64,000 nucleotides of DNA. It comes from Fervidobacterium sp. (lineage in GTDB: Bacteria; Thermotogota; Thermotogae; Thermotogales; Fervidobacteriaceae). Under the pieces are notes generated by a model. It had not been told where the DNA came from and made no database searches. It saw only the letters and a list, made by a program, of their open reading frames with translations. Numbering within the stretch: position 1 is the stretch's first letter; each line of letters starts with the position of its first letter. The DNA lies in NCBI GenBank assembly GCA_026419195.1, contig JANZZV010000001.1:186001-250000 (forward strand). The letters are read 5' to 3'. The position numbers and the translations under genes are program-made. Shown here one piece after another: positions 48,049 through 54,012 of the stretch.

Positions 48049-49188
48049 TTAATAATACTCAATGTTAACTATCTTTCCTTTCTTTTGCAATATCGAGCCT
48101 ATATCGTGAATGAGTCTGAATTTAAGCGATATATCGTGAGAAAACAGAGGATTTTGATGGGCTGGGTTGATAGCTCTACCCACAAGAAATGTGATTATAT
48201 CAGATTCTTCAAACATGTCAACAAGTTTTTGTGCACCTATGCCTACCTCTGTTGTCTGGGACTCATAATATCTGAAGACTTGTGTGAGTGTGATTATACC
48301 TTCTGTGATTAAATCTACACCTTCCATATACCCAATCGGAGGGGAAATCTGGGAGATGCTTGAGAAATCTATTTCCACCTTTCGACCGAGTACTTTTTCA
48401 GCTATCTGACTGGTAGTACCGCCACATATGACTTTCTTTCCTTCGGATTCTATAAGTTTTCTAACTACTATTTCATCATGTTCCTTTCTTTCCGGAGGTC
48501 CTACCATTATCGTTAGATTTCGTCTTTCCCTTACCTTAATTGCACAGGCAGTTGCATCATCCCCTTTTGTTCCTTTGTCAAGGGCTTCAGCCAACCTGAC
48601 TAAGTGTTCTACTACACTTGAAAGATCCACTTTGTGCTTTATCAAGTTTTTCAACTCAATTCTTACGTTTTCAATACCAAATCCAAATGGGTAACGTTTT
48701 GTACCCATGCCGGCTTGCGTTATTCCATCAGTCATCAGGAATATCACATCACCAGGTTGGACTACAAAAGAAGATTTATAAACCTTTCTTCCTTCTATCT
48801 CAGACAATTCTTTGTCAGTTTCCAGTGCATCGTCGTTTCTATAAACTAATACCACCGGAAAATCGTACTCGTATATATTGCAAATTCCAGAACTGTGATC
48901 AATTTCACATGTAGCCAAGGTTGCATAGCTAATCCCACGTACTTTGCAAATTGGTAGCGTCGAAAGTATAGATCTAAAAACTTCGTCTATCGGTACGTTA
49001 TTGAAAACCATAGTTGTTGACATTGAGGCAGTTAGTGTTGAAAGAATGCTTGCCTTTATCCCGCTTCCAAGTCCATCGGAAACACTTATAACCGTTTTAA
49101 GCTCACTCTTTTTGAATTTCACTGTGTCACCGCACACTTCTTCACCAGTTTTATTTTTCTGTGCATAATGTATATCACACGTCAGCAT
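48049..49188 (-). CDS. SpoIIE-type PP2C phosphatase, output of the hydrogenase-like sensor
   Basis: The 379-residue protein has an N-terminal PP2C domain (about 1-215) with metal motifs ISVSDGLGSG (about 33), FLMTDGITQAG and KGDDATACAI. After this, about 160 residues form a separate C-terminal domain with GGTTSQIAEKVLGRKV and GVDLITEGIITLTQV. I do not recognise that domain. The gene overlaps the end of the hydrogenase-like gene by 14 bases, implying coupled translation and a shared signal path. It probably dephosphorylates a protein in response to the sensor; the target is not encoded here. ATG 49188 has GGGGGAAG upstream. Confidence 0.88.
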   Translation of the reverse strand: MLTCDIHYAQKNKTGEEVCGDTVKFKKSELKTVISVSDGLGSGIKASILSTLTASMSTTMVFNNVPIDEVFRSILSTLPICKVRGISYATLATCEIDHSSGICNIYEYDFPVVLVYRNDDALETDKELSEIEGRKVYKSSFVVQPGDVIFLMTDGITQAGMGTKRYPFGFGIENVRIELKNLIKHKVDLSSVVEHLVRLAEALDKGTKGDDATACAIKVRERRNLTIMVGPPERKEHDEIVVRKLIESEGKKVICGGTTSQIAEKVLGRKVEIDFSSISQISPPIGYMEGVDLITEGIITLTQVFRYYESQTTEVGIGAQKLVDMFEESDIITFLVGRAINPAHQNPLFSHDISLKFRLIHDIGSILQKKGKIVNIEYY

Positions 49189-50824
49189 TATCTTCCCCCA
49201 TATGTTTTTTAAATTCTAAGAAATGTGACTTTGTCTGTGCTATTGACTCACCAAGCAAACTAGCAATATCTTGAGCGAGTTTCATCTGGTTGTTCAATAC
49301 TTCTTCTATTTTCTCTATTGTTCTTCTTTTCAGATTATCCATTCTTTCTCTTTGTATCACCATCTCAGTAATATCGACAAACAAAACAACATTTCCACTT
49401 TCATCTGGTAATTGAAATGTCTTTGGATAGAAATACATCTTCTTACCGTTTATGTACAACTCTTGTACGCGTTCCGGTTCGTTGTAAATTCGTTCAGATA
49501 TTTGAAGTATCGTATCATTTGAGTAATATCTGAACAATTCCTTTGCAGAAGCGTTTATGTACAATATTTTGTCATCTTTAAATATAACTATAGCATTTGG
49601 TGATTCATCAACTACCTTGTTTGAGACTGATGATACTTTTTCTATCAAGTACGCGAAGCACATTTCCTTTTCTGCTTTACCGAGGTAAACTGCCTTTGCC
49701 TTGTCACGGCAAGTTTCATAGCCACATCCTGTACAGTTAAGTTCTTTATCCACAGAAGTTTTCCCCATAGATATCAGTATTTTTTCTACTTCATCAGCTG
49801 GAACTTGAGGTTCGTTATACTTTTGTGTGAAATGCTTTTTCAAAACCAAATTGTAGATTGCTGCGTTCAGATTTCTTTTCGGTTCTAGATTGTGCATTAT
49901 TTGTGTTGCTCGCTCAAGCCTTCTGCGCTTTTCTAATAAACTCACACTGTTATCAGAAGTGGGACCATTCAAACACCCGCCTATACATGCTGAGGCTTCC
50001 ACTATTATCTTTTCATGATCTACAGGTTCAAACTTCTCAAGAAATTCCATAATGTTTCTTGTTCCCTCCAGGACCACATGTCTGAAAACATCTTCACTTG
50101 CCGAAAATAAGATACCGCCTGATATAGGATATCTCCTTGTTCGTTGTGGATACGGTGGATCAGGTACTTTTTCTTGACAGTTGGTAATATCCATGGGCAA
50201 GGTTTTTATAAGATAATTCAGTTCTTCAAATGTTAGGACTGCATCGTAAAAATCATCAAGTTCCTCTTTTTTAGCTATGCAAGGACCTATAAAAATTTTT
50301 GGAATATCTCCAAAAAGGTAATTTAAAAACTTTGCGTGGGCAATTGCAGGTGATACAACGGGAAATAAATTTTGAACAAATTTTGGAAAATAAACTTCCA
50401 CAAGCTTTGTAACAACTGGACAAGAAGTTGTTATGAAAACTTTATTAGAATTATCATAAATTTTCTTGTATTCCTGAGTAACAAACTCAGCACCAACAGC
50501 TGTTTCAGATATGTGCACAGCTCCCAAAGTTTTAATGGCACCTAAGATTTTGAAGGGATTTGAAAAATTGCCGAAAAATGAAGGTGCCACAGATACAACA
50601 AATGGCTTATTCAAAAGTATTTTGAACCTTTCAAGATCTTTTCTATAGTTCTTTGCCTTTTGAGGACAAATATTCACACACGTCCCACAGATAACACATT
50701 CTTCTTCTATTACGTAAGAGTAGTTATCTTTGAAACTGATAGCCTTAACAGGACAATTTCTCAGACATTTATAACAGTACTTACAATTTGCTTCGTTTGA
50801 CAATATATATCTACTTGATGTCAT
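49175..50824 (-). CDS. Sensory [FeFe]-hydrogenase-like protein with PAS domain (HydS type)
   Basis: The 549-residue protein has two [4Fe-4S] motifs (Cys14/17/20/24 and 43/46/49/53) and a hydrogenase catalytic-type domain. Another Fe-S motif follows (Cys364/367/372, Cys389), then a PAS domain (about 400-485) and a coiled coil. The H-cluster ligands are all present: Cys135 in TTSCP, Cys182 in GPCIAKKEE, Cys280 and Cys284 in ACIGGC. The proton-shuttle Cys of TSCCP is Ser134 here. Such replacements mark the putative sensory group C/D hydrogenases, so turnover should be slow or absent. ATG 50824 has AAAGGTG upstream. It overlaps the ferredoxin-like gene by 14 bases and the phosphatase gene by 14 bases. 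Confidence 0.88.
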   Translation of the reverse strand: MTSSRYILSNEANCKYCYKCLRNCPVKAISFKDNYSYVIEEECVICGTCVNICPQKAKNYRKDLERFKILLNKPFVVSVAPSFFGNFSNPFKILGAIKTLGAVHISETAVGAEFVTQEYKKIYDNSNKVFITTSCPVVTKLVEVYFPKFVQNLFPVVSPAIAHAKFLNYLFGDIPKIFIGPCIAKKEELDDFYDAVLTFEELNYLIKTLPMDITNCQEKVPDPPYPQRTRRYPISGGILFSASEDVFRHVVLEGTRNIMEFLEKFEPVDHEKIIVEASACIGGCLNGPTSDNSVSLLEKRRRLERATQIMHNLEPKRNLNAAIYNLVLKKHFTQKYNEPQVPADEVEKILISMGKTSVDKELNCTGCGYETCRDKAKAVYLGKAEKEMCFAYLIEKVSSVSNKVVDESPNAIVIFKDDKILYINASAKELFRYYSNDTILQISERIYNEPERVQELYINGKKMYFYPKTFQLPDESGNVVLFVDITEMVIQRERMDNLKRRTIEKIEEVLNNQMKLAQDIASLLGESIAQTKSHFLEFKKHMGEDNADV

Positions 50825-51107
50825 AATTATCACCTTTGTTCAAAATTAGTTTAGTAAGTACAAAATCAAGTTCCTCCAACTTGTCGGTGCTTAAATTAGA
50901 AACAGTTTCACCACTTATTGTAATATTCACACTATTTGTGCACTGTCCCATGCACAGAGCACCTCTTAGCTCAAATTTATTTTCTAAGTTATGTTCTTTT
51001 AGAAATTTTTTGATTCTCTCAGCAATCGCGAAAGCACCTTTTAGATGACATGAACTTCCAAAACATACGCTAATAACATACTTACTGTTGACTTCTTCTT
51101 TGTCCAT
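50811..51107 (-). CDS. Thioredoxin-like [2Fe-2S] ferredoxin (NuoE-type)
   Basis: This 98-residue protein matches the thioredoxin-like [2Fe-2S] ferredoxin/NuoE C-terminal domain. The cluster ligands are Cys15 and Cys20 (CFGSSC), then Cys52 and Cys56 (CMGQC). It would pass electrons to or from the hydrogenase-like sensor, with which it shares a 14-base overlap. A similar small ferredoxin gene beside a hydrogenase-like gene is known from Thermotoga (recalled, not checked). ATG 51107 has GAGAGG upstream. It is the first gene of the three-gene unit. Confidence 0.88.
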   Translation of the reverse strand: MDKEEVNSKYVISVCFGSSCHLKGAFAIAERIKKFLKEHNLENKFELRGALCMGQCTNSVNITISGETVSNLSTDKLEELDFVLTKLILNKGDNYDIK

Positions 51108-51202
51108 GTTCTTAACCTCTCTTGAACTACATATCCAAATCGAAGATTATGTTATAATTTTCACGATTACCAATTTAATGATATATCCTTACAAAAAAAA
51201 AG

Positions 51203-51228
51203 TCAAGTGCCCCCATTGGGGCACTTGA
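51203..51228 (-). terminator. Terminator after the hibernation factor gene
   Basis: TCAAGTGCCCC (51203-51213) pairs with GGGGCACTTGA (51218-51228), loop CATT. Nine T residues follow on the minus strand. It ends the DegV to raiA run and isolates the hydrogenase-sensor unit. Confidence 0.92.
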
Positions 51229-52304: not shown

Positions 52305-53132
52305 CTAAAACCCCCTTCCTATCACTAAACCAAACACCTCTGGTCCCACATGAGCGGCTATTGCCGGTCCTATGCGTGCGATAGAATGCACTTTGAATCC
52401 ATTGAGCAGCTTATCTAAGTGAGGTTTCATTGAAACTGTGCCGTAACCGCCTATAGTTATGGGATTATCTATACTCTTCGAGAAATTTAAAGCCAAATCT
52501 CGCATTTTTTCAATGCATCCTTCTATTGTCCTCGAAGTTTCAAGGGAAACTGTGTAACCTTCCTCATCGGTGGACAATATAGGTTTTATTCGCAGTAGCT
52601 TTCCTAAGAGTGCTTTAGCCTTTCCTATACGCCCACCCTTTTCAAGATATTCTAAAGATGTTACGGTAAAAATCAAAAGGCTCTCTTTCACAAATTTATC
52701 TACCAATTCTTGCGTTACTTTGAGTCCATTCTCGGCAGCTTGGATAACTCTGTAAAGAATATAAGTAGTTTTTACACTACCACTTTTGGAATCGAGCACG
52801 GTGACATTTTTCAACTTGTTGTTTTGAACTATAGTTTTTATTGACTCATGCGTACCGCTTAATTTTTCTGATATTGTAACCACATAGACATTTTCGTAAT
52901 TTCTTGAGTGTTTAATTAATTTCTCTGTTATCAATTCAACATTGGGTTGCGAAGTGGATACTTTTGAACCATTCAAACATTTTGTGTAAAATTCCTCATT
53001 TGTGATAGTTAATTTATCAATGTATTCCTTTTCGTCTACATATACCCTCAGCGGAATTATATCCGTTGGAACACCAAAATCAAAACCTTCCTGAAAGTCA
53101 GCCGAACTGTCAAAGACGTAAATATTTTTCAT
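52305..53132 (-). CDS. DegV family fatty-acid-binding protein (first copy)
   Basis: This 275-residue protein begins NIYVFDSSADFQEGF and has the DegV motif FVKESLLIFTVTSLEYLEKGGRIGKAKALLGKLLRIKPIL, of which YLEKGGRIGKAKAL is the key part. The C-terminus is IGPAIAAHVGPEVFGLVIGRGF. In the family, DegV/FakB proteins bind a fatty acid and present it to the kinase FakA. No fakA gene is in the window. It follows the second DegV gene by 34 bases. Confidence 0.92.
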   Translation of the reverse strand: MKNIYVFDSSADFQEGFDFGVPTDIIPLRVYVDEKEYIDKLTITNEEFYTKCLNGSKVSTSQPNVELITEKLIKHSRNYENVYVVTISEKLSGTHESIKTIVQNNKLKNVTVLDSKSGSVKTTYILYRVIQAAENGLKVTQELVDKFVKESLLIFTVTSLEYLEKGGRIGKAKALLGKLLRIKPILSTDEEGYTVSLETSRTIEGCIEKMRDLALNFSKSIDNPITIGGYGTVSMKPHLDKLLNGFKVHSIARIGPAIAAHVGPEVFGLVIGRGF

Positions 53133-53166
53133 ATATTTACTCTCACCTCTGCTGTATTAAAAAGAA

Positions 53167-54012
53167 TTACAACTTTCCAACGACTACTCCAAAAGCATCT
53201 AATCCCACATGAGCTGTAATTGCCGGCCCAACATCCAAAAATTTAGGTTTCAAATTATAATTTTTGGAAACTTCGTACACATAATCTTTGTATTCCTCAA
53301 GTCCTACAGCTGCATAGAGAATATACTTTGTGTTGTTATCATTTTTAGATTTTTCAATAAAATCACCAATTCTTTTGTTAAGTACGTCCAGGATTTTTTT
53401 CTTGCTTAGAGTCTTATCTACAAGTTCAACTTCACCTGTTCGTGCAATTGTTAAGATAGGTTTAATATGTATCATTTGACCTATGAGTGATACTACCTTA
53501 CCAATTCGTCCACTTTTGTGTAACTGTTCTAAATTGAAGACCGATATTAAGAATAATGAGTCATCTCTATATGATATTATATCATCCTCTTCTAGATTCT
53601 TGCCATCTAAAATATCTAAAACCATTCTTTCAAATATATAAGTATTCTGAATGCTTACAGTTTTTGAGTCGAATACCAATATATTCTCGTATTTGCTTGC
53701 TATTGTGCTAAAAAGACTGTATGTCCCACTTAGTAGCGAAGAAACGGACAAAACGTATACACGGTCATATTTCTTCGAAAGTTCTTCAAATACACTTTCA
53801 ACAGTACTTATATTTGGTAGGGAAGTCTCAACTTTTTCCTTGTTCTTTATCGCTTCAACTATACGTTCAGATAACTCATCGGAATCTTCAAACTCCTCGT
53901 TGTTTATATAGACACGTACGGGAACAATTCTGACATCAACCTTATCGGAGATTTCATTCAAAAAATCATTTCTAAGTTTTGTGGTGCTATCGATAACTAT
54001 AGCGTTCTTCAA
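53167..54012 (-). CDS. DegV family fatty-acid-binding protein (second copy)
   Basis: This 281-residue protein begins AIVIDSTTKLRNDFL, has the motif QLHKSGRIGKVVSLIGQMIHIKPIL and ends VGPAITAHVGLDAFGVVVGKL. It is homologous to the downstream gene, and the two form a tandem pair, so a duplication is likely, though the sequences have diverged. The start is TTG 54012, preceded by a GGTGAAGG site. In other bacteria different DegV/FakB copies prefer different fatty acids. Confidence 0.92.
   Translation of the reverse strand: MKNAIVIDSTTKLRNDFLNEISDKVDVRIVPVRVYINNEEFEDSDELSERIVEAIKNKEKVETSLPNISTVESVFEELSKKYDRVYVLSVSSLLSGTYSLFSTIASKYENILVFDSKTVSIQNTYIFERMVLDILDGKNLEEDDIISYRDDSLFLISVFNLEQLHKSGRIGKVVSLIGQMIHIKPILTIARTGEVELVDKTLSKKKILDVLNKRIGDFIEKSKNDNNTKYILYAAVGLEEYKDYVYEVSKNYNLKPKFLDVGPAITAHVGLDAFGVVVGKL

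Follow-up and report, generated by a model that had tools for sequence, protein, structure and literature searches.

A probable Group C3-type sensory [FeFe]-hydrogenase/phosphatase unit in Fervidobacterium, with a conserved sensor helix and a putative Rex-type operator

Three overlapping genes on the minus strand of the window (the whole analysed stretch of 64,000 nucleotides of the heat-loving Fervidobacterium sp., positions 186,001 to 250,000 of contig JANZZV010000001.1) are best read as a Group C3-type sensory [FeFe]-hydrogenase/phosphatase unit, in which the signal would pass from the H-cluster through a PAS domain and a helix acting in trans to a PPM phosphatase with a STAS-type target, the unit being controlled by Rex; we assign this reading a probability of roughly 55%. 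It is built on the domain content, the conserved cluster ligands and metal-binding residues, the gene overlaps, the conservation in relatives and the operator sequence observed in this work. The original prediction of a slow sensory hydrogenase with output through a phosphatase remains the best account of these genes, but it is not new, as the literature on HydDB, TM1420-1422, HfsC and R. albus demonstrates that this cascade is an already published hypothesis. HydDB names the [FeFe] Group C3 phosphatase-linked and proposes H2 sensing via Ser/Thr phosphatases (PMC5037454), while a published list counts TM1420-1422 of T. maritima as a sensory hydrogenase encoded ahead of the bifurcating enzyme (PMC3561251). 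In Thermoanaerobacterium the serine phosphatase HfsC is encoded beside the PAS hydrogenase HfsB (PMC11837493), a pair with a regulatory phenotype of hfsB, likened to ours by description. The eight-gene cluster of R. albus, containing a sensory hydrogenase, was 111-fold down in low-H2 co-culture, with the phosphatase mentioned (PMC6776011). Group C3 of HydDB, in which a Ser/Thr phosphatase gene adjoins that of a HydS-type hydrogenase, has no defined difference from the unit described here; its entry mentions neither a mechanism nor a linker helix or C-terminal domain, and signal transfer by group C [FeFe] hydrogenases is an acknowledged open question (PMC11376134). To this literature the present analysis adds a defined C-terminal domain of the phosphatase, a helix proposed to act in trans, a retained operator and a short list of kinases and substrates. 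The original prediction had overlooked three things: the helix proposed to connect the sensor with the phosphatase, the operator that the unit has in common with hydCBA-rex, and the ancestral neighbourhood of hydABC.

According to the ORF listing, the unit runs in the order Fdx, HydS, phosphatase (51107-48049, minus strand). Fdx (51107-50811), occupying a TM1420-like position, encodes a [2Fe-2S] thioredoxin-like protein of 98 aa; HydS begins at a GTG (50833) or an ATG (50824) and ends at 49175, giving 552 or 549 aa, respectively; and the SpoIIE/PPM phosphatase gene occupies 49188-48049 (379 aa). The 14-base overlap claimed for both gene pairs holds for HydS and the phosphatase, while for Fdx and HydS it holds only with the ATG start, amounting to 23 bases with the GTG. 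A terminator had been predicted downstream of the phosphatase gene, and an intrinsic one with an 11-pair stem and a T run indeed lies at 47994-47970 (minus strand); the terminator of the upstream hpf gene (51228-51203, minus strand; 11-pair stem and T run) is stronger and insulates the unit upstream. Fdx is preceded by a promoter-like TTGACT-N17-TATCAT (51178..51206, minus strand; consensus match only), and the sequence upstream of hydC carries hexamers and spacing identical to it. By consensus matching, nothing promoter-like was seen at the start of the phosphatase gene, and independent transcription of this gene was rejected on this ground. A perfect TTGACA-N16-TATAAT inside the phosphatase coding sequence (48221-48194, minus strand) is too far 3' to express the phosphatase and is probably a chance occurrence. 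On the other side of hpf, two DegV-like genes stand in tandem (52305-54012 of the window) with ATP synthase genes at their other flank, and this neighbourhood is kept in several relatives.

Fdx matched the 2Fe-2S_thioredx family (Pfam PF01257, 5.6e-11) with Cys15/20/52/56, its relatives in the PDB being HydA and HydC of bifurcating hydrogenases. The Pfam matches of HydS are Fe_hyd_lg_C (4e-39) and FeS (PF04060, 2e-7), and its architecture comprises two N-terminal [4Fe-4S] clusters, the H-domain, a Cx2Cx4Cx16C cluster, a putative PAS domain and a C-terminal helix. The PAS_8 match (E = 6e-4) scored 20.1 bits, just under the gathering cut-off of 21.8, and a stand-alone homologue clears the Pfam cut-off (PAS_9). 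The C-terminal cluster motif Cx2Cx4Cx16C, taken from PMC8163306, is exact at Cys367/370/375/392. The H-cluster ligands named earlier (Cys135, Cys182, Cys280 and Cys284) and Ser134 are right when numbered from the ATG; from the GTG they become Cys138, Cys185, Cys283, Cys287 and Ser137, the serine standing at the position of the proton-shuttle Cys299. Group C proteins have Cys at this position in about 17% of cases, Ala in 43% and Ser in 10% (PMC10055695); the serine is an ordinary group C substitution. The positions of M353 and M497 are taken by Gly and Ser, as in TmHydS, from which the window protein differs by Ser for Ala131. One locus of this family, whose neighbouring HydA is almost the same as the T. 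maritima HydA of solved structure, displays Ala131, Gly177 and Ser267 in the published register, and Phe for Tyr223. In the phylogenetic tree, the H-domain fell into one group with HydS of R. albus and Thermotoga, apart from groups A and B (support 85/86). Thus, the retained H-cluster cysteines, the Cx2Cx4Cx16C motif, the phosphatase gene overlapping by 14 bases and the placement in the tree with known HydS are the Group C3 features found in the window protein. Outside the window, at G000:C3:225903-227840, a second sensory [FeFe] hydrogenase, similar to HydDB Group C2, carries an MCP chemotaxis signalling domain in the same chain; its reading frame contains a single in-frame TGA, indicating either a pseudogene or a sequencing error.

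The third protein had been described as a SpoIIE-type phosphatase with an unrecognised C-terminal domain, and both parts of this description are confirmed. The SpoIIE family matches residues 31-219 (Pfam, 1e-18), and the AlphaFold2 model (pLDDT 90.6) retrieved SpoIIE (1e-14) and other PPM phosphatases with Foldseek. The acidic motifs GD21, SDG37-39, DG154-155 and GDD209-211 are invariant, with D21, D38, D154 and D210/D211 preserved across 42 aligned phosphatase relatives. Residues 222-379 (48525-48052, minus strand) belong to no Pfam or PDB family: Pfam gave no match to residues 220-379 and nothing convincing or consistent for the domain, a sequence profile gave no match in the PDB, and Foldseek found no PDB fold below E 1e-3. 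A STAS-like DUF4325 assignment was discarded as noise (best E 0.04, 5/30 members). Folded alone, this part is predicted to be an alpha/beta domain (pLDDT 92.4). It was found 48 times in 103 Thermotogota genomes, each time in an ORF of this phosphatase family, so that within Thermotogota the idea of a widespread stand-alone module was rejected (48/48 on this phosphatase). Its invariant residues (GPP, GGTT, EG, G-N, then NP) are situated mostly just past predicted strands, some of them within a low-confidence loop at about 340-350 of the model, and they may form a pocket at one edge of the alpha/beta sheet.

According to the model, the PPM fold begins at residue 1-2, with no N-terminal linker of the kind present in RsbU and RsbP. 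We compared, across loci, the genes directly preceding the phosphatase for a common feature. In 50 of 53 loci the preceding gene terminates with the helix QMxxAQEIAxLLGExxAETK (43 by the strict pattern plus 7 clear variants, one genome being counted twice, as L006 and L069); of the three exceptions, one lies at a contig end, one has an unresolved frame, and the third is Acetoanaerobium, whose sole phosphatase of this family is encoded far from HydS. In the window the helix, KIEEVLNNQMKLAQDIASLLGESIAQTKSHFL, spans 49312-49217 (minus strand), about residues 508-539 of HydS. No other part of the sensors' C-terminal half is conserved as well: the mean majority frequency is 0.72-0.80 in the helix vs 0.24-0.41 in the PAS core. 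The helix is borne by HydS with PAS at type I loci, by PAS-only proteins about 168 aa long at type II loci and, at locus L076, by HydS without PAS. Since the helix is kept even where the upstream gene encodes a PAS-only protein, it likely represents a relay acting in trans. The helix also resembles the linker QLxIAxxIQxxLLP preceding the PPM domain of single-chain phosphatases of the same phylum (hhalign score 18.7, probability 12%; heptad-preserving shuffles averaged 10.9, and 2 of the 300 reached the observed score), in a comparison chosen after inspection and with heptad-rich helices matching easily, so this similarity is weak and suggestive only.

The PPM phosphatases RsbU and RsbP are switched by linker helices (PMC12143880), and their order of PAS or other sensor, linker helix and PPM phosphatase is the same as in the unit. 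RsbP, however, is one chain, whereas here the linker-like helix belongs to the sensor and the phosphatase begins at its PPM domain, with no sensor and linker fused to its N-terminus. In view of this mode of switching, the unit is most simply pictured as a sensor-linker-phosphatase chain divided where the linker meets the PPM domain.

Full-length phosphatase is kept in about 47 of the 103 Thermotogota genomes, usually beside HydS, which argues that the unit is not a chance association. The usual order in this phylum is [2Fe-2S]-HydS-phosphatase-HydC-HydB-HydA-Rex, with the [2Fe-2S] gene nearly always first. As in T. maritima, the unit is thus commonly located upstream of hydCBA; in the window genome it no longer adjoins hydCBA-rex, hydC-hydB-hydA-rex being found apart at C4:146205-141175. 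A genome of the same genus (L043) has both the upstream neighbours of the window unit and downstream hydCBA-rex, from which it follows that the linkage was lost in the window genome. Adjacency of sensor and phosphatase was observed in Thermotogota, Dictyoglomota and Clostridia, the latter sampled through plasmid records only; a single-protein scan of genome contigs gave two relatives only, and viral contigs contained no relative. A Dictyoglomaceae MAG (L005, Dictyoglomota) displays the order HydS-phosphatase-HydC-HydB, its phosphatase being 57% identical, which suggests lateral transfer. T. maritima HydS was purified and turns over H2 (PMC10055695), which would suit an auxiliary low-rate hydrogenase followed by an unrelated passenger phosphatase gene; we consider this highly improbable, as the two genes stay adjacent, with the helix conserved, in all three groups, and the active-site residues of HydS depart from the productive type.

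R. albus 7 provides a further comparison. Its phosphatase, encoded on plasmid pRUMAL01, is 37% identical to that of the window over the full length including the C-terminal domain, and HydS, the [2Fe-2S] proteins and a Rex gene are also in common; the differences are the linkage to HydA2 and adhE, a proton-shuttle residue that is Cys, and an additional gene for an APH-like kinase. On the plasmid, exactly eight genes follow one another, with rex first and hydA2 last (rex-adhE-HydS-phosphatase-HydA2); we take them to be the published 111-fold-regulated cluster. The APH/RIO-like kinase gene (L077:6049-6798) lies just upstream of [2Fe-2S]-HydS-phosphatase in this H2-regulated cluster, and is a candidate for the opposing kinase there.

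The nature of the input deserves separate consideration. At type II loci (L070-L076 and L050) the place of HydS next to the family phosphatase is taken by a PAS-only protein and a monomeric hydrogenase of group B, so that the helix partner is kept and the H-domain absent; H2 is consequently not the only possible input. HydS might rather respond to the general redox or ferredoxin state, with the N-terminal clusters and the [2Fe-2S] protein as the entry route for electrons and with the H-cluster as their sink or gauge. Such a role would agree with the exchange of the H-domain protein for a PAS-only one while the phosphatase is kept, with the translational coupling and nearly constant first place of the [2Fe-2S] gene, and with the conservation of the HydS clusters. 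We regard it as rather doubtful, given that the four H-cluster ligand positions are retained in HydS across phyla and that regulation in R. albus follows the H2 level.

A putative Rex-type site, TCGTGAAAATTATAACA, is located at the putative Fdx promoter (51150..51166, minus strand), 43-59 nt upstream of the Fdx start. A search of the window for the TTGTTAA-type Rex motif gave nothing above shuffles, and the TYGTGAA form was therefore searched next; the operator resembles the Rex consensus TTGTGAANNNNTTCACAA. The pattern TYGTGAAANNNATMACR occurs at two sites only in the 2.06 Mb genome, namely at the sensor unit and at the hydCBA-rex promoter, where it forms an overlapping inverted pair before hydC; since these sites, with related ones, had served to define the pattern, what is informative is its absence elsewhere in the genome. 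Within the phylum, almost all type I units have the operator at their front end (73 matches, as opposed to 3 in that region with the pattern reversed, near-palindromic sites being scored on both strands); it was not found at the Dictyoglomaceae locus. The genome encodes two Rex paralogues, one of them after hydA. The published Rex regulon of T. maritima already covers hydrogen-production genes, so Rex regulation of such genes is probably not new; the added observation is that the operator persists at both units after their separation.

As for the target, the unit has no linked gene for a kinase, a STAS protein or a sigma factor, and in this respect departs from the RsbW/STAS partner-switch with its cognate kinase and STAS gene next to the phosphatase. 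The genome encodes one clear RsbW-like HATPase (C5) and one CBS-HATPase, five STAS proteins (C1, C4, C6, C9) and four SpoIIE phosphatases, the RsbW-like and STAS genes all lying away from the unit. The CBS-domain protein with the RsbW-like HATPase (G000:C11:44745-45674) is a possible second STAS kinase. The SpoIIE-type PPM phosphatases of known target act mostly on STAS substrates, and by elimination and family precedent a STAS protein is most likely the substrate here. Direct action on the hydrogenase system (HydABC subunits or Rex) instead of a STAS/anti-sigma switch would accord with the lack of such linked genes, with the hydCBA-rex linkage in most relatives and with the common operator in the window genome; apart from family precedent, the linked hydrogenase of R. 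albus is a different enzyme, HydA2, making a conserved hydrogenase target less likely, and we hold this alternative to be unlikely.

In the preferred scheme with a STAS-type target, the H-cluster would be altered either by H2 itself or by the electron state that H2 and reduced ferredoxin establish, and the signal would then pass via the C-terminal [4Fe-4S] cluster to the PAS domain. The C-terminal helix of HydS might substitute in trans for the linker helix that RsbU/RsbP-type chains carry N-terminally, orienting or dimerising the PPM domain and so turning the phosphatase on or off. The phosphatase would act on a phosphoprotein, for which the likeliest candidate is a STAS-type antagonist that an RsbW-like kinase has phosphorylated; the alpha/beta C-terminal domain of the phosphatase may bind a ligand or the substrate. 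The unit is presumably transcribed under the Rex repressor together with hydCBA-rex, and by this joint control the NADH/NAD+ and H2 signals would meet on the same hydrogenase system. More tentatively, and at well under even odds, we propose that the chain of RsbP-like proteins was severed between linker and PPM domain to give two overlapping genes, leaving one phosphatase with a ligand-binding alpha/beta domain to be switched in trans by exchangeable sensors (HydS, HydS without PAS, or a PAS-only protein), so that a single hydrogenase system would integrate three signals: H2, NADH via Rex and whatever ligand the domain binds. The Pfam search of the window genome gave no Pkinase match, i.e., no Hanks-type kinase; in this organism the helix, the defined C-terminal domain and the candidate list make the question of group C signalling directly approachable.
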